Positions 6,208-31,500 of a stretch of DNA of 35,587 bases are shown in pieces. The translations under genes were made by a program, and so were the position numbers. The notes under the pieces are model-generated. The model saw only the letters and a program-made list of their open reading frames with translations. It did no database searches and was not told the origin of the DNA. Origin of the DNA: a virus; the IMG/VR virus record IMGVR_UViG_3300004369_000059, positions 1 through 35,587 of that record; one strand, 5' to 3'. Within the stretch, counting starts at the first letter, position 1. Each line of letters begins with the position of its first letter.

Positions 6208-6374
6208 TGGATTATCGCTACCATTCAGACGACATGGATAGCGATAGCAGACCACCTAGTTGTTATCAACTTAAATATAGGGGGGTAACATATTGGTCTT
6301 GTTATAAGGTGCATTTGCGCGAGTACTTTGAGCAGTTGCTTAAAGCACAACCAATCTACAATAGGAAGGGTTGA
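6207..6374 (+). CDS. DUF4278-like small protein 2
   Basis: 55 residues starting MDYRYHSDDMDSDSRP. The central LKYRGVTYWSCYKV carries the YRGxxY signature that is also seen in the preceding gene. A helical segment follows (HLREYFEQLLKAQ). It starts on the last base of the previous stop (TGATG), so translation is coupled. Its final codons form the ascending arm of the terminator at 6363-6389. Its function is unknown. Confidence 0.6.
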   Translation: MDYRYHSDDMDSDSRPPSCYQLKYRGVTYWSCYKVHLREYFEQLLKAQPIYNRKG

Positions 6375-6389
6375 TCCCTTCCTTTTTTT
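6363..6389 (+). terminator. strong intrinsic terminator
   Basis: AGGAAGGG (6363-6370), loop TTGAT, CCCTTCC (6376-6382), then seven T residues. This is a textbook factor-independent terminator, ending the small-gene unit driven from 5683. Confidence 0.85.
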
Positions 6390-6420: not shown

Positions 6421-6588
6421 ATGACTGAAAAGCAAGAAAGACTTAAATTGATCCTTGGCAACCTTTCTTTATTGATCGATTCTTTGTACGAAGAGTTGGA
6501 ATTGAATCAACCTGCACCCCCTGAATACACTGAGGTTTTGGAATACTCTACCTATGCAGATACATATGATGAAGTATTTGAAGGTTGA
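6421..6588 (+). CDS. small acidic protein, function unknown
   Basis: 55 residues starting MTEKQERLKLILGNLSLLID. There is one amphipathic helix, then a Pro/Glu/Tyr-rich acidic tail (EYTEVLEYSTYADTYDEVFE). No Shine-Dalgarno is obvious. Its TGA overlaps the ATG of the carbamoyltransferase N-terminal gene (TGATG), which suggests coupled translation with that gene. I recognise no family. Confidence 0.55.
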   Translation: MTEKQERLKLILGNLSLLIDSLYEELELNQPAPPEYTEVLEYSTYADTYDEVFEG

Positions 6589-7535
6589 TGACTTATACTT
6601 TAGGTATCAATTTATCTCATGATGCATCTGTTTGTCTTTTGAAAGATGCTGAGATTGAAATATATTTGGAAGAGGAAAGAACAAGTAGAATTAAAAGAGA
6701 TGACTTTCCTGCTACAGCATTCAATTCTTTAAGAAGACATTTAACTGCACCACTAGACCATGTTGTCTTAGTGAGTGCAAAGTATGTAATTCCTGAAGCG
6801 ATAGAATATGTTTTATATTCTCTCAGGAAACATCATCTTATGCACAAGGACACTCAGATTTATAATTATGAGGGTCGTCATCATGAGTGCCATGCGGCAA
6901 ATGCTTTTTACTCTTCTGGATTTGAAGATGCTGGATGTTTAATCATGGATGGCAGTGGATCAAAAACTCCTACAGGAGTTGAAATTGAATCACACTACCA
7001 TGCTTCTGGGAATGAATTCTTCCCAATAAAGAAAATTACTTATGATGAAAACAATCCTGGATCAATCAGCATTGGAAGAGCATTTGATCTAGTCGCCGTA
7101 TACTGCGGTTTTAGCGCCCACGGGGACGCTGGAAAGGTTATGGGGTTAGCACCCTATGGAAACGCTAGAAACGTCCCACAACTCTTCACAGAGGGCGGAG
7201 AGAGCGATCCTGAGATCATTACTTGGGATAATATAAATTTAGATGTGGAACCTGCCGATCTTGCTGCTAGAATACAGGAAGATAGTCTAGCAGTATCTAC
7301 CAATTCAATTAGAGATTTGATTTTTTACACTGGATGTGATAACATATGTCTCAGCGGCGGATATTTTCTTAACTGCGTCAACAACTACGAGTATCTCAAA
7401 ACATTTCCTGAGATAAAATTTTATGTAGATCCAATTTCTCATGATGGTGGAACTGCTATTGGTGCGGCAAAACTTTTTTATTCAACACTTCATGAGTTCC
7501 AACCACGTAAACTAGAAACATTGTATTTGGGATGA
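6588..7535 (+). CDS. carbamoyltransferase, N-terminal domain protein (NodU/CmcH type)
   Basis: 315 residues from ATG 6588, overlapping the previous stop. It matches the N-terminal, ASKHA-fold part of NodU/CmcH/TobZ-type O-carbamoyltransferases. The start is LGINLSHDASVCLL, then EEERTSR, then HHECHAANAFYSSGF with the histidines that bind metal and nucleotide. IMDGSGS, DAGKVMGLAPYG, and the late block LSGGYFLNCVNNYEYL followed by DGGTAIGA complete the pattern. The family makes a carbamoyl-adenylate and transfers the carbamoyl group to a hydroxyl. Normal family members are one chain of about 550-600 residues. Here the protein stops just before the C-terminal domain, which is encoded by the next gene with a 4-base ATGA overlap. 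The acceptor substrate is unknown. Confidence 0.85.
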   Translation: MTYTLGINLSHDASVCLLKDAEIEIYLEEERTSRIKRDDFPATAFNSLRRHLTAPLDHVVLVSAKYVIPEAIEYVLYSLRKHHLMHKDTQIYNYEGRHHECHAANAFYSSGFEDAGCLIMDGSGSKTPTGVEIESHYHASGNEFFPIKKITYDENNPGSISIGRAFDLVAVYCGFSAHGDAGKVMGLAPYGNARNVPQLFTEGGESDPEIITWDNINLDVEPADLAARIQEDSLAVSTNSIRDLIFYTGCDNICLSGGYFLNCVNNYEYLKTFPEIKFYVDPISHDGGTAIGAAKLFYSTLHEFQPRKLETLYLG

Positions 7536-8086
7536 AAGCAAATTACTCTACAGTAGTTGACTTACTACTTGACCAAAAAATCGTTGCTCTTTTCCAAGGA
7601 AGATCTGAAGCAGGTCCCAGAGCACTTGGGAATAGATCTATTCTATTTGATCCAAGGAATCCTAACGCCAAAGATATTGTCAATCAGGTTAAGAGGAGAG
7701 AATCTTTTCGACCGTTCGCCGCTTCGGTACTTTTAGAAGAAGCACCAAAATGGTTTGACATGCGTGGTCTAAAAGAAAGTCCTTTTATGATGTACGCTAT
7801 GGACGCTTTTGAGGAAGGATGGGAAAAGATACCTGGAGTTCTACATGTTGATAACACATGCAGAATCCAAACGGTTACCAAAAGTCAGAACAAACACTAC
7901 TATAATCTAATTAAAGAATTTTTTGAGAGGACAGAAGTCCCAATGCTGTTCAATACATCATTTAATTTGGCGGGTGAACCACTGGTTCATACCATGGATG
8001 ATGCACTTGACACACTGCGTCGAAGTGAGATAGAATACCTCTATCTTCCTGAATTAGAAGAACTCATTACTGTCAAAAACACATGA
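7532..8086 (+). CDS. carbamoyltransferase, C-terminal domain protein
   Basis: 184 residues, the Carbam_trans_C half of a NodU-type enzyme. GRSEAGPRALGNRSIL (23-38) is the signature loop that binds carbamoyl phosphate. FRPFAASVL follows, and NTSFNLAGEP is the second conserved block. Together with the preceding gene it makes a complete enzyme of about 499 residues in two chains. The split falls at the natural domain boundary, with a clean ATGA overlap, so it looks like a stable gene fission rather than a frameshift. It might also partner the second N-terminal protein (8933-9961). Its stop overlaps thyX as ATGA. Confidence 0.87.
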   Translation: MKANYSTVVDLLLDQKIVALFQGRSEAGPRALGNRSILFDPRNPNAKDIVNQVKRRESFRPFAASVLLEEAPKWFDMRGLKESPFMMYAMDAFEEGWEKIPGVLHVDNTCRIQTVTKSQNKHYYNLIKEFFERTEVPMLFNTSFNLAGEPLVHTMDDALDTLRRSEIEYLYLPELEELITVKNT

Positions 8087-8721
8087 TTCATACTGCAACT
8101 CTTGTCTCTGTTACTCCTGATGCAGAAAAAAACATTGCTTATTGTGCTCGTGTAAGTAATCCAGCAAATCAAGAGAGTGAATCTTTTGAGGGTCTGCTGC
8201 GTTATTGCATCAAACATAAACACTGGAGTATTTTTGAACAAGCATTTATGACTCTGGAGTTGAACACTACCAGAGCAATCGCTGCTCAAGTGCTGCGCCA
8301 TCGCAGCATGACATATCAGGAATTTTCTCAAAGATACGCTGACGCTACTCTTTTGTCTAAAGATATTCCTCTGCCCGATCTGCGTCGTCAAGACACAAAG
8401 AACCGTCAGAATTCTATTGATGATCTTGAACCTTTCGTTAAACAGAAACTAGAGATGCAGATGCAAACTCTATTTTCTTCTGCTCAAGCACTGTATGAAC
8501 AGATGCTTGCTGAGGGTGTGGCAAAGGAGTGTGCAAGAAATGTGCTTCCTTTGTGTGTACCAACCAGAATGTATATGTCGGGGTCACTGAGATCTTGGAT
8601 GCATTATATTGATCTGCGTACTGCTAATGGTACGCAAAAAGAACACATGATGCTTGCAGAATCTTGTAAGCAAATTTTTAAAGAACAATTCCCCGTAATT
8701 TCAGGAGCAATGGACTGGTGA
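8083..8721 (+). CDS. thyX: FAD-dependent thymidylate synthase ThyX
   Basis: 212 residues. The ThyX signature RHRSMTYQEFSQR (72-84) fits RHR-x7-S-x-R, and HWSIFEQAFMTLEL (47-60) is the upstream conserved block. The C-terminal R...WMHYIDLR fits the substrate-binding helix. The enzyme makes dTMP from dUMP with methylene-tetrahydrofolate and FADH2/NADPH. Cyanomyoviruses use ThyX where T4 uses the unrelated Td enzyme. The gene starts by ATGA overlap with the carbamoyltransferase C-domain gene, and its stop overlaps a GTG start downstream. Confidence 0.95.
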   Translation: MIHTATLVSVTPDAEKNIAYCARVSNPANQESESFEGLLRYCIKHKHWSIFEQAFMTLELNTTRAIAAQVLRHRSMTYQEFSQRYADATLLSKDIPLPDLRRQDTKNRQNSIDDLEPFVKQKLEMQMQTLFSSAQALYEQMLAEGVAKECARNVLPLCVPTRMYMSGSLRSWMHYIDLRTANGTQKEHMMLAESCKQIFKEQFPVISGAMDW

Positions 8722-8933
8722 AAAAACTTATTCGTAAACTCAAGCAAAACGTATCTTCAACTCGCATGACCTTTCTTTCGGTCGCTGCTGTAGTTGCTAT
8801 TGGAAATACTCTGACTGGTTGGACAGTGATCTCTTGGATTCTTTGGATTCCACCTATCGCACTTACTGCTGCCGCCATCACTGGAGTCTGCCCATTTAAA
8901 ATCATTTGGGAAAAACTTGGATTTAAAGACTGA
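8718..8933 (+). CDS. DUF2892-like small inner-membrane protein
   Basis: 71 residues from a GTG start that overlaps the thyX stop. A basic N-terminus (KKLIRKLKQN) is followed by two hydrophobic segments (about 18-36 and 38-56) separated by LTGWT. The end CPFKIIWEKLGFKD resembles the GxCPxxxLLG end of DUF2892 (YgaP-type inner-membrane domain) proteins. It probably sits in the host cytoplasmic membrane. No rhodanese domain is attached, and its function is unknown. The stop overlaps the next start (TGATG). Confidence 0.6.
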   Translation: MKKLIRKLKQNVSSTRMTFLSVAAVVAIGNTLTGWTVISWILWIPPIALTAAAITGVCPFKIIWEKLGFKD

Positions 8934-9961
8934 TGTACATTCTAGGTATCAACATTTCTCACCACGCTTCAGTGTGCTTGTTGAAGAACGGGCATGTTGT
9001 ATACCATATTGAGGAAGAAAGACTTAACAAAAGAAAGTACTGGGGACCCAACGAAACAAATCATTATTACAAATCAATTACTGCACTCACACAGTTTACA
9101 AAAAGAATTGATCGTGTAGTTTTTGCTGGCGTTGGTGAACCGTTTGAGATGGATGTGATTCAAAGCATCCATGATCAACTTTTTAGTCTAGGTTTGATTG
9201 GTGAACAAGCAAATCATCATTATGCACCTACGCAACATCATCTATATCATGCAGCGTGTGCATTCTACAACTCTGGATTCAAAGATGCTGCAGCACTGAT
9301 TGTTGATGGTGGTGGTGCCAAGATCCGTGATGGTGTGAATGAGGGTGAATCTATTTACCGTTGTTCTTATCCACATAAGATTGAAGGTGAATGGCAGCAC
9401 AGATTTAACTTTTATCAGATTGAAGAAGCATTTGAATTCAAAAATGCTGATGGTGAGTTATTCAGTTCACACATTACTGCGGGTAGTTTGTTCAACAACT
9501 TTGGTGACAAACTAGGATTTAATGGTGGATTTGATGCTGGAAAGTTGATGGGATTGGCAAGTTATGGTACAATAGTAGATGATGAGAGTTGGTACATGAA
9601 TTTTGAGGGTGTTCAGATGACAAAAAATAGTGTCATCATTGATCGTCTCAAAGCAGATTATCCAACCTTTGAGGATCGAGCAAACCTTGCCAAGAAACTC
9701 CAAGTAGAAACTGCTAAGCACACCAGACATCTCATCAAAAAGTGTTTGGAGATTTCTCCCAGAGTTGTTCTGAGTGGTGGGTATTTTCTAAATTGTGTCA
9801 ACAACTATGAATACTTAGATTTGTTCGACGATCCATCTAATCTCTACATAGAACCAAATTCATCGGACGCTGGCACTGCACTAGGTATAGCAAAACTATT
9901 TCACTATGCATTGTCCCAAAAGAAGACACCAATCCCCTTGAAGACCCTCTATATGGGTTAA
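8933..9961 (+). CDS. second carbamoyltransferase N-terminal domain protein
   Basis: 342 residues, a paralog of the protein at 6588-7535. It shares the start (LGINISHHASVCLL), EEERLN, a histidine block QHHLYHAACAFYNSGF, VDGGGAK, DAGKLMGLASYG, LSGGYFLNCVNNYEYL, DAGTALGI, and the final LKTLYMG (LETLYLG in the first copy). It ends at the same domain boundary. However, no C-terminal carbamoyl-phosphate domain follows: the next gene is unrelated. It may share the C-domain at 7532-8086, use one outside the window, or have lost activity. It starts by TGATG overlap with the membrane protein gene. Confidence 0.83.
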   Translation: MYILGINISHHASVCLLKNGHVVYHIEEERLNKRKYWGPNETNHYYKSITALTQFTKRIDRVVFAGVGEPFEMDVIQSIHDQLFSLGLIGEQANHHYAPTQHHLYHAACAFYNSGFKDAAALIVDGGGAKIRDGVNEGESIYRCSYPHKIEGEWQHRFNFYQIEEAFEFKNADGELFSSHITAGSLFNNFGDKLGFNGGFDAGKLMGLASYGTIVDDESWYMNFEGVQMTKNSVIIDRLKADYPTFEDRANLAKKLQVETAKHTRHLIKKCLEISPRVVLSGGYFLNCVNNYEYLDLFDDPSNLYIEPNSSDAGTALGIAKLFHYALSQKKTPIPLKTLYMG

Positions 9962-27640: not shown

Positions 27641-27834
27641 GACCTCAGACCAGAAAATCTATGGAAATGCTGTTTTCTGCGAAGTGGAATTTGCCCAAGG
27701 CAGCAGAACACTGTGGTCTAACGAATAAGGAAATGAAAATCACATTCAATGAGTATTGTGCTTTTCATCCCCCCACTTATACTACAGAGTCTCATCAAAA
27801 TACTGATGGTTTTCTGGATTTTCCAGAGCAGTGA
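27637..27834 (+). CDS. small protein with helix-turn-helix-like segment
   Basis: 65 residues starting MRPQTRKSMEMLFSAKWNLP. KAAEHCGLTNKEMKITFNEY (21-40) looks like a helix-turn-helix, so DNA binding is possible, as a small transcriptional regulator. The tail FHPPTYTTESHQNTDGF is flexible. Its final 53 bases run antisense to the end of the minus-strand structural gene (27782-28510). It is co-transcribed with the two genes before it from 27247. Confidence 0.6.
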   Translation: MRPQTRKSMEMLFSAKWNLPKAAEHCGLTNKEMKITFNEYCAFHPPTYTTESHQNTDGFLDFPEQ

Positions 27835-28510
27835 TGATGTTTGACTTGGCGGTGATCTGAGCATTGATCTTGGACTCCGCCTGGTCATATCCAAATTTTT
27901 GAAGTTCAAAGTTAGATCTTGCTTCTTTTAGAGCATTAACTTGAACAATTACTGAATTTCTTTCAGACCTATATGTCGAAAGACTTGCTTCTAGTGTAGA
28001 AATGGAAGTTGCATAACCGACACACGTTCCAACACCTGGAATACCGAAGTGAGTTCCGATCGATACCGTAGAAACACCAACATAAGTACCGATACCAAGA
28101 TTGCTTGCGGTCAATGTTGATGTACTAACTTCAAATGGATTGGGTGTAGTGAAAGACCAGTTGTAAGCAGTTACTACATCACCAACAACTTCTACAACAC
28201 CATCACCCGTAGTTCCACAACCTACGGCATTTGCACTCTGCCCAAGTGCTAGAATTTCATCTTGAATATCTCTAATTTGTGCATTAATCGTTACGATCCT
28301 GTTATCTAATCCTTTTGTGGATGGACCAAAACGATTGATCATAGTGTTCACGCCCTCCACAATAGCAACTTGACTATTAGGATCTGAAGGATCTGTTAGG
28401 ACTGTGATTCCTTCTTTAGTCTGTCTCAGTTGTTTGATGTGTTCTAGATCTTGTTCAATAGATTTCTTGTACGAATTAATCAATTCACTGCTTTTTTTGC
28501 CCAGCGCCAT
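27782..28510 (-). CDS. virion structural protein with flanking coiled coils
   Basis: 242 residues from the ATG at 28510, beginning MALGKKSSELINSYKKS; a longer frame to 28558 would run through the late promoters and is rejected. Residues 1-90 and about 180-235 are heptad-like helices (IEQDLEHIKQLRQ, NRIVTINAQIRDIQDEI, ESKINAQITAKSNIITALE). They frame a Gly/Thr/Ser/Val beta-region (about 95-165, GIGTYVGVSTVSIGTHFGIP). This layout suggests a trimeric fibre or whisker-like protein. The late promoter is at 28540-28547. It overlaps an early gene tail-to-tail. Confidence 0.7.
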   Translation of the reverse strand: MALGKKSSELINSYKKSIEQDLEHIKQLRQTKEGITVLTDPSDPNSQVAIVEGVNTMINRFGPSTKGLDNRIVTINAQIRDIQDEILALGQSANAVGCGTTGDGVVEVVGDVVTAYNWSFTTPNPFEVSTSTLTASNLGIGTYVGVSTVSIGTHFGIPGVGTCVGYATSISTLEASLSTYRSERNSVIVQVNALKEARSNFELQKFGYDQAESKINAQITAKSNIITALENPENHQYFDETL

Positions 28511-28513
28511 ACT

Positions 28514-28521
28514 TATAAATA
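28514..28521 (+). promoter_or_regulatory. late promoter TATAAATA (rightward)
   Basis: A perfect late octamer 30 bases before ATG 28552. It lies between the leftward late promoter (28540-28547) and the leftward gene that promoter serves. Confidence 0.8.
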
Positions 28522-28539
28522 CAAAGAAGAAGGTGTCAT

Positions 28540-28547
28540 TATTTATA
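28540..28547 (-). promoter_or_regulatory. late promoter TATAAATA (leftward)
   Basis: A perfect minus-strand octamer about 30 bases before the ATG at 28510. It lies beyond the rightward promoter, so the two transcripts cross. Confidence 0.8.
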
Positions 28548-28551
28548 GGCA

Positions 28552-31500
28552 ATGCCATTAAGCAGACTAGAGAATTTTCTAAAGAATATTCAGGGTTTCA
28601 TCATTTACGTTGATCCTAACGAAATTGACGCCACTGATGATATTACCAACCAGGGTAATTCAAAAGCACGTCCATTTAGGACTATCCAGCGTGCTCTAAT
28701 TGAAGCAGCGAGATTTTCTTATCAGGCGGGTGTAGACAACGATAAGTTTGATCAAACAACGATCGTTATCGCTCCTGGTACTCACTACATCGACAACAGA
28801 CCAGGTTACCGCATTGACACCAGCGGTAATATTACAGACGCTAATAGCACCACTCAAAGTATTCCTGAACTGACACTATCGTCCAATTTTAATATTCAGG
28901 ATGCTCAAAACGATCTTTATAAGTTCAACTCTATTCACGGTGGTGTAATTATTCCCCGTGGTGTTTCGATCACTAGTATTGACCTTAGAAAAACTAAGAT
29001 CCGTCCTAAGTATGTTCCCGATCCTGAGAATGTAACCATTGAGAGATCTTCCGTCTTTAGATTGACTGGCGGATGCTACATGTATGGTTTCACATTCTTT
29101 GATGCTGATACCAACGACACGATCTTTAAGGATAACACTGGTAACAGATACGCTCCTAGATTCTCTCACCATAAACTGTCTTGCTTTGAATATGCAGACG
29201 GTACAAATAACTTTGAATCTACAGGTAATACTGACCTGGGGATGTATTATCATAAGTTGACACTTGCTTATGGTACAAGTTCTGGTAGAGCACTGCCTGA
29301 TTATCCTGGCAACGATGACTTTGAGAAGAAAATTGATGAAACCAGAATTGTTGGTTCTCTAAGTCAAGCAGGTGCTATTGCAATTAGCGATATCTATTCT
29401 GGTATAACACCAACAGATAGCACAGCAACTTCTGTTGTTACTGTTGTCACTTCTACTGATCATGGACTTCAGACTGGTACACCTGTAAGAATTACTGGTG
29501 TTAATAATAGTGAATATGATGGATCTTTCCTTGTCGCTCAAATTCTTAGCGCCACTTCTTTCACTTATTCTCTAGCAACTGCTCCAACATCTACTGCAAC
29601 ACCTGATCTCTCTGGTCTAACCCCAGAGATGGATGTTGAATCTGATAGTACAGCGTCTGCATCTCCTTATATTTACAACTGTTCTTTGAGATCATCTTAT
29701 GGACAGTGTGGTATGCTGGCAGATGGCAGCAAAGCGACTGGTTTCAAGTCGATGGTCGTGGCACAATTCACGGGTATCGGTCTTCAGAAAGATAATAATG
29801 CATTTGTTAAGTACAACAGGACAAGTGGCATCTATGAAGATCAATCAACTCTAGGATCTTCTGTTAACCTATATTCTGACGTTGAATCGAAATACAAACC
29901 TGATTATGTAAACTTCCATATTAAGGCAATAAACAACTCCTATATCCAGGCAGTTTCGATTTTTGCTATTGGTTACGCTGAGCAGTTTGTATCTGAGGCG
30001 GGTGGTGACCTTTCCATCACCAACTCCAACTCTAACTTTGGTGCAAAATCTCTTATTTCTGCTGGTTATAGAGATGATTCATTCTCTAAGGATGATAAGG
30101 GTTATATCACCCACATCATCCCACCCAGAAATAATACGAACAAAGTTACAGACCTTACATATCTAACTGCTGATGTTGATGTAACTGCTGGTCTGTCCAC
30201 CGACACCAAAATTTATTTCTATGATTATAAGAACCAAGATACTCCACCACCAAGATCTGTAAGTGGTTATATTGTTGGTGCAAAGGTTGATGATACTCTA
30301 AACGTTTCTATTGCAAGTTCTATTCAGACTGCAAGAATCTTGATGCCCACACCTGGCACAGATCCTGATGAAAGAGTATCTGCTGTCAAGTCTCATGTTG
30401 TTGGTAGAGTATCGGGTATCAACTCTATTACTTCTAACACATTTACTCTACAGGAAAATCATAAGTTTATAAATGGTGAATCCATTAGGATCATTAGTGC
30501 TGATGGTAGTCTACCTGATGGCATTGAATCCAATAAAGTTTACTTTGCAATTACTGATGGTTTGAATGCAGACCAGATTCAAATTGCAAACAATGAAAAC
30601 GGCGCAATTGCTGGGTCTGAAATCACTAATCTGAATAATTTGGGTGGTGAACTTACCATTGAGTCTAGAGTTTCTGATAAGATTCCTGGGCAAATCGGTC
30701 ACCCAATTCAATATGACTCTAGCGGTTGGTACATTAACGTTGATGTTCGCAACACCTTGTCTACCGCAATTGTCGCCAACCAAGCAAGAATTACACCTAA
30801 GACTTCAAACCTAACACTTACCAGAAAACCTGATAACAGGAATGACGGTGATAAGTTGTATAGGTTTAGATATGTTATTCCTCAGGAAGCAACAGATGCT
30901 GTTGCACTTATTCCTGGTTTTGTTCTTCAGGACTCTGGAACTCCCATCGATGATACTGTATATCAAAATGATAATACAGATATTACCGACATCACTAACC
31001 TAAGAACTAATACTAGCATTGTCAATGCTTCTTGGTCTGGTGCTACTGGTATTGTCACGACACAATATCCTCACCAACTACTTGATAATCAGCACATTCG
31101 TATTAGAAGACTCCAGACTACTAATAATACGACTGGCACCGTCAATCTTGGATTCAATAGAGACTTCACAGTTACTCAAGTTATTGATTCCAGAACGTTT
31201 GCTGTTGGACTAAACACTGATCCAGGTGGTATTACTACTGTTGCATCTTCTAGACCTTATACTTATGAGGATGCAACTGTTGTTGGTTCTGGTAGAACGT
31301 TTGCTCCATATTTTGAAAGAGTGGAGTATGGTCCTGCTTATCAGGTATTTGATACCACAACAATCCAAAAGTTTATCCCCAGCGTTCAGGATGGTATCTA
31401 TCAAGTTACCATTGCTGGTCATCTAGCAGCACCTCCACTATCTCCCTTTGCAACTTCGACCAAGTTCTTGCCCCAGAACTTTGATTACTATGTTCCCGAA

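Follow-up and report, generated by a model that had tools for sequence, protein, structure and literature searches.

Class III carbamoyltransferases of the CmcH/NodU/TobZ type have been characterised in every case with both domains on a single chain (PMC9633730), and the channel between class III domains is thought to carry carbamoyl-AMP (PMC9654439). The same arrangement is described for TobZ and HypF, whose intermediate travels via a channel between fused domains (PMC9654439), with HypF working as TobZ does in the reversed domain order (PMC6022934, PMC9654439). Among phages, a 5hmdC carbamoyltransferase is known; it is fused (63 kDa), and its partner gene is of the ThyA type (PF00303) (PMC8670742). 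We found no prior description of split carbamoyltransferases in the open-access literature searched, where only annotation lines show the parts.

The window, by which we mean the whole stretch of DNA analysed here (35,587 bases, virus record IMGVR_UViG_3300004369_000059), contains a T4-like gene set including baseplate, tail tube, gp32-type SSB, helicase loader, late promoter regulator, PhoH and talC. Between 6421 and 9961 there is an unbroken, end-to-end overlap of genes: a 55-aa ORF, the Kae1-like subunit N1, the YrdC-like subunit C, ThyX, a 71-aa ORF and a second Kae1-like subunit, N2 (Table 1). Given this overlap, C and N2 would be expected on a single message. The sole C of the record ends 846 bp upstream of N2, which is flanked by the 71-aa membrane ORF and ThyX on one side and by a phrog_385 gene and PhoH downstream. 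The mechanically called ORF of N1 is one codon longer, starting from TTG at 6585, and its length is counted here from the ATG. Five terminator-like stem-loops were found against 2.8 expected, all by consensus match only. The 71-aa ORF has a weak match to a YgaP-like TM domain (PF11127, E=0.0014) that falls under the cut-off; it occupies the place that C holds in S-RIM44-type phages and was not seen in the C-N relatives.

Table 1. Features of the window, with position, strand and distinguishing remarks
Feature	Position	Strand	Remarks
Tryptophan-halogenase-like protein, 394 aa	3115-4299		Adjoins HNH and 2OG-Fe(II) oxygenase genes
Terminator-like stem-loop and T run	6363-6383	+	Just upstream of the chain; consensus match only
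55-aa ORF	6421-6588	+	First gene of the overlapping chain; TGA overlaps N1 ATG; read from sequence
N1, Kae1-like (Carbam_trans_N) subunit, 315 aa	6588-7535	+	Ends at the domain boundary LETLYLG
C, free-standing YrdC-like (Carbam_trans_C) subunit, 184 aa	7532-8086	+	Start overlaps N1 stop (ATGA)
ThyX, 212 aa	8083-8721	+	PF02511 1.8e-46; overlaps C stop (ATGA); between N1-C and N2
71-aa membrane ORF	8718-8933	+	Overlaps ThyX and N2
N2, second Kae1-like subunit, 342 aa	8933-9961	+	Ends LKTLYMG; without adjacent C
258-aa ORF	27782-28558	-	Faces against the tail genes; without PHROG or significant Pfam match

The original prediction, that a carbamoyltransferase is split here at its domain boundary into proteins of 315 and 184 residues joined by an ATGA overlap, agrees with both the coordinates and the domain matches. 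N1 and N2 match PF02543 (Carbam_trans_N; 2.3e-25 and 5.2e-16, respectively) and extend over positions 2-330 and 1-331 of phrog_1601, whilst C matches PF16861 (Carbam_trans_C; 6.5e-62, covering 2-164 of 170) and the C-only family phrog_20469. N2 does stop at the same boundary as N1 (LKTLYMG versus LETLYLG) with no C gene adjoining, and it is diverged from N1 as proposed, the two being 34% identical end to end. The expected histidine blocks, HHECHAA in N1 and HHLYHAA in N2, and the identical SGGYFLNCVNN were all found. The iron ligands of GdmN are H133, H137, D156 and D333 (PMC9633730), and these align with H98, H102, D121 and D286 of N1 and with H102, H106, D125 and D312 of N2. The catalytic histidine (TobZ H14, GdmN H27) is kept in N1 (H11) and in N2. 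Loss of ATP- or metal-binding residues from N2, which had been raised as an argument against its function, is contradicted by the alignment, in which its catalytic and metal-ligand residues are all kept. The four metal ligands are present in 44/44 representative N domains, be they fused, paired or orphan. C keeps the TsaC/YrdC motif KxR...SxN as K54-R55-R56 and S143-F144-N145, and equivalents of TobZ K443 and S530 are also kept. AlphaFold (AF2) models of N1 and N2 have pLDDT values of 88.8 and 91.0; their best fold matches in the PDB are TobZ, VtdB, GdmN and NovN, followed by TsaD/Kae1, with TobZ the top match for both (1.8e-18 for N1). The LYLG-tail end is among the least certain regions of both models, as expected where another domain meets.

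The layout of the window recurs, at about 94-98% DNA identity, in four further contigs that come from other metagenomes. This recurrence rules out an assembly error or frameshift; moreover, what is seen is absence of the linker and not an interruption within it, and the relatives are split as well. Between the window and these contigs, N2 differs by 21-25 synonymous and only 1-2 nonsynonymous codon changes, compared with 9-12 and 3-4 for N1 and 4-6 and 1-3 for C. If, as a rough guide, 70% of neutral changes are taken to be nonsynonymous, the figure for N2 has a probability near 5e-11. Judged from these codon counts, N2 is under strong purifying selection, stronger than that on N1, and is constrained as a protein rather than being a leftover. 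We could discard N2 as a pseudogene on the grounds of this selection, the intact active site and the fold.

The claim that such an enzyme is normally a single chain holds for cells, since 71 of the best 80 cellular-genome loci hold one fused gene only, but not for marine T4-like phages, where split forms are common. The split layout is not private to the window phage and is present across marine T4-like phages. Moreover, the comparison of layouts bears out the suggestion of a modular system, with N and C shuffled as separate genes into several orders in related marine T4-like phages. The order C-N between ThyX and PhoH, with ThyX preceding, is found in S-RIM44, Sf-FP1 and many contigs, and the order N-C in several lineages (L056-L064, L066-L070). 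Elsewhere N stands alone at ThyX-PhoH and a fused enzyme lies some 6 kb upstream of it (L034, L035, L044, L051, L052, L078 and L081). A separate lineage has an N-C-N triad in which one C gene is flanked by two N (L071 2623-5116, L072 3132-5625), and in S-SCSM1 (MK867354.2; L110 4181-7763) ThyX and PhoH enclose a tandem C-N-C-N array whose second N clusters with the orphan N found in S-SSM7 and Sf-FS3. An apparent split case in bacterial cells, L158, was binned as a Rhodospirillaceae MAG; it is a T4-like phage fragment (ThyX-C-N-regulator-PhoH), and we rejected it as a phage contig contaminating a bacterial bin.

In the complete genomes of S-RIM44 and Sf-FP1, C and N each occur exactly once, as separate genes annotated as two Nol-like carbamoyltransferases, and therefore separated domains must suffice there, if functional. 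N domains outnumber C domains in the complete genomes of S-SSM7 (4:3) and Sf-FS3 (3:2), with one orphan N each, and in long contigs too. A lone C was seen at contig ends only; away from the ends, every C has an N. A missed divergent N would yield a false lone C, and thus the excess of N over C is not a search artefact of that kind.

The position of N2 is that of N in S-RIM44-type phages, ahead of phrog_385-PhoH-exonuclease, and in the tree N2 groups with the PhoH-locus clade of these N proteins (support 81/70). Within this clade there have been at least three changes in whether N adjoins C, the one in the window phage included. As to the origin of the window's own C, neither the C-N type clade nor the S-MS29-type fused clade was rejected by tree tests (p-AU 0.37 and 0.15, respectively). 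An LYLG-like tail is kept by all 11 members of this clade of 21 that have an adjacent C and, with the window excluded, is lost from all 9 relatives that do not; N2 is the only member of the 21 with such a tail and no adjacent C. Fisher's test gives p 3e-5 for this association, which overstates the evidence as the nine losses are perhaps two events. The tail-less orphan N at ThyX-PhoH (L031-L054, L078, L081), of about two lineages, keep all active-site residues. The LYLG tail is no universal need, since N-C pairs arranged collinearly in another clade do without it. Nevertheless, the pattern suggests a link between the tail and a free C subunit, and also that such a subunit is still encountered by N2.

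The reading that we favour, with moderate confidence, is of a split CmcH/NodU/TobZ-type enzyme in which one C feeds both N1 and N2; the sharing of C, taken by itself, we hold with about the same confidence. Underlying this reading, at the level of sequence, are the domain identities, the intact active sites, the selection on N2, the gene overlaps and the shuffled layouts. C would make carbamoyl-AMP out of carbamoyl phosphate and ATP, and would then dock on, or pass the intermediate to, N1 or N2. The metal-dependent N1 and N2 would in turn move the carbamoyl group to hydroxyl acceptors, probably different ones; given the divergence of the two proteins, it is plausible that their acceptor specificities differ. 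N1 and C would form a translationally coupled pair, whilst N2 would descend from a cassette of the C-N type, located at ThyX-PhoH, in which N no longer has its C alongside; N2 would now be served by the C that lies further upstream in the overlapping chain of genes. Since the intermediate of TobZ and HypF is channelled between fused domains, such sharing would need a docked or diffusing intermediate, and with N1 and N2 sharing only 34% identity it is not certain that both offer C the same docking surface. More tentatively, we suggest that marine T4-like phages may possess a swappable system in which a free C donor serves several Kae1-like N via docking of the conserved C-terminal LYLG tail, so that a phage would gain several carbamoyl modifications from one donor subunit.

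The strongest alternative, though one we consider unlikely, is that N1 and C are a private pair and that N2 uses another C, free or in a fused enzyme, elsewhere in the genome. Fused enzymes remote from the split locus do occur in the relatives G003, G005, G012 and S-SCSM1, and the window is a 35.6 kb fragment. T4-like cyanophage genomes are mostly 170-200 kb, and thus the roughly 53 kb covered by the window and a 17 kb extension to its right leave room for a second C, most likely inside a fused enzyme; exact DNA patterns gave no match for an extension leftward. However, there is no second C domain in the window or in the 17 kb to its right, nor another N or C domain of any kind across the 53 kb. 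Moreover, the fused enzyme that relatives have upstream of phrog_461 is not present at that position in the window, a single C is all that S-RIM44 and Sf-FP1, as complete relatives, contain, and C and N2 belong to one chain of overlapping genes.

It is improbable that N2 is independent of any C, whether by taking a host adenylate such as threonylcarbamoyl-AMP from TsaC/YrdC or by a changed chemistry. Its retention of the LYLG tail and of the full TobZ-type active site argues against this, as does its clustering with N proteins having an adjacent C, albeit with a support of 81/70 only. Nonetheless, a YrdC family protein occurs in 14/14 control genomes, one of them a Synechococcus, N2 has its fold in common with TsaD/Kae1, and the loss of the LYLG tail in orphan-N relatives hints at C-independence there. 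Finally, although N2 lacks a neighbouring C, and the site of the 71-aa ORF is taken by C in S-RIM44-type phages, it is very improbable that N2 is a leftover or non-catalytic (regulatory) copy after N1 recruited C, given purifying selection exceeding that on N1, intact catalytic residues and a confident, complete predicted fold.

Split and shuffled forms occurring in nature would demonstrate that the two half-reactions are separable and shareable, as in t6A. They would also offer ready-made parts for carbamoylation chemistry and make it tractable to test how one protein passes a short-lived adenylate to another.

Compared with known systems, N1 and N2 have the HxxxH, D, D ligands and catalytic histidine of the class III Kae1-like domain and C has the KxR...SxN of its YrdC-like domain, but N and C are separate ORFs in the window and the four contigs. 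On these features the window system is a split variant of class III rather than a strict member. It has the two domains, metal ligands, catalytic histidine and KxR...SxN motifs in common with TobZ, GdmN, VtdB and NovN, which are the top PDB matches by sequence as well as by fold; however, these are single chains, whereas the window has separate proteins and two N per C. Fused forms in phages have a linker of 14-30 aa that is largely missing from the split pair of the window. Scores for the NodU equivalog NF041651, which needs >1000 bits, are far lower (N1 27.9, C 105.3, N2 16.9). For HypF TIGR00143, which needs >466 bits, N2 scores 15.6 and N1 and C have no match. HypF does contain YrdC-like and Kae1-like domains, in an order that parallels the gene order C-N, but it is fused and carries acylphosphatase and Zn-finger domains, neither of which was found here.

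The nearest phage systems differ in arrangement. At ThyX-PhoH, S-RIM44 and Sf-FP1 encode C and N as free-standing proteins, their N being the positional ortholog of N2, but they have one of each in the order C-N, whereas in the window ThyX separates the preceding N1-C from the N2 that follows. Like the window, the complete genomes of S-SSM7 and Sf-FS3 have more N domains than C and an orphan N near a C-bearing gene, but their C is present only within fused enzymes, unlike the free C of the window. The 5hmdC carbamoyltransferase, like the window system, is found with a thymidylate synthase-type gene; it is, however, fused, and its partner is of the ThyA type (PF00303) rather than ThyX (PF02511). 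Carbamoylation of DNA bases of the 5hmdC type goes with a partner gene of the dCMP hydroxymethylase/ThyA type and with modified DNA. The frequent presence of ThyX nearby makes a target in nucleotides or DNA conceivable by analogy. In the t6A pathway, YrdC and Kae1 are separate proteins, and a YrdC-type adenylate maker (TsaC/Sua5) and a Kae1-type transferase (TsaD/Kae1) work in a similar way. That system moves threonylcarbamoyl to tRNA, whereas the window's donor is a Carbam_trans_C protein and PF01300 (YrdC family, the t6A donor type) has no match anywhere in the window, which places it outside the t6A TsaC/TsaD systems. The phage system looks like TobZ chemistry in a t6A-style arrangement.
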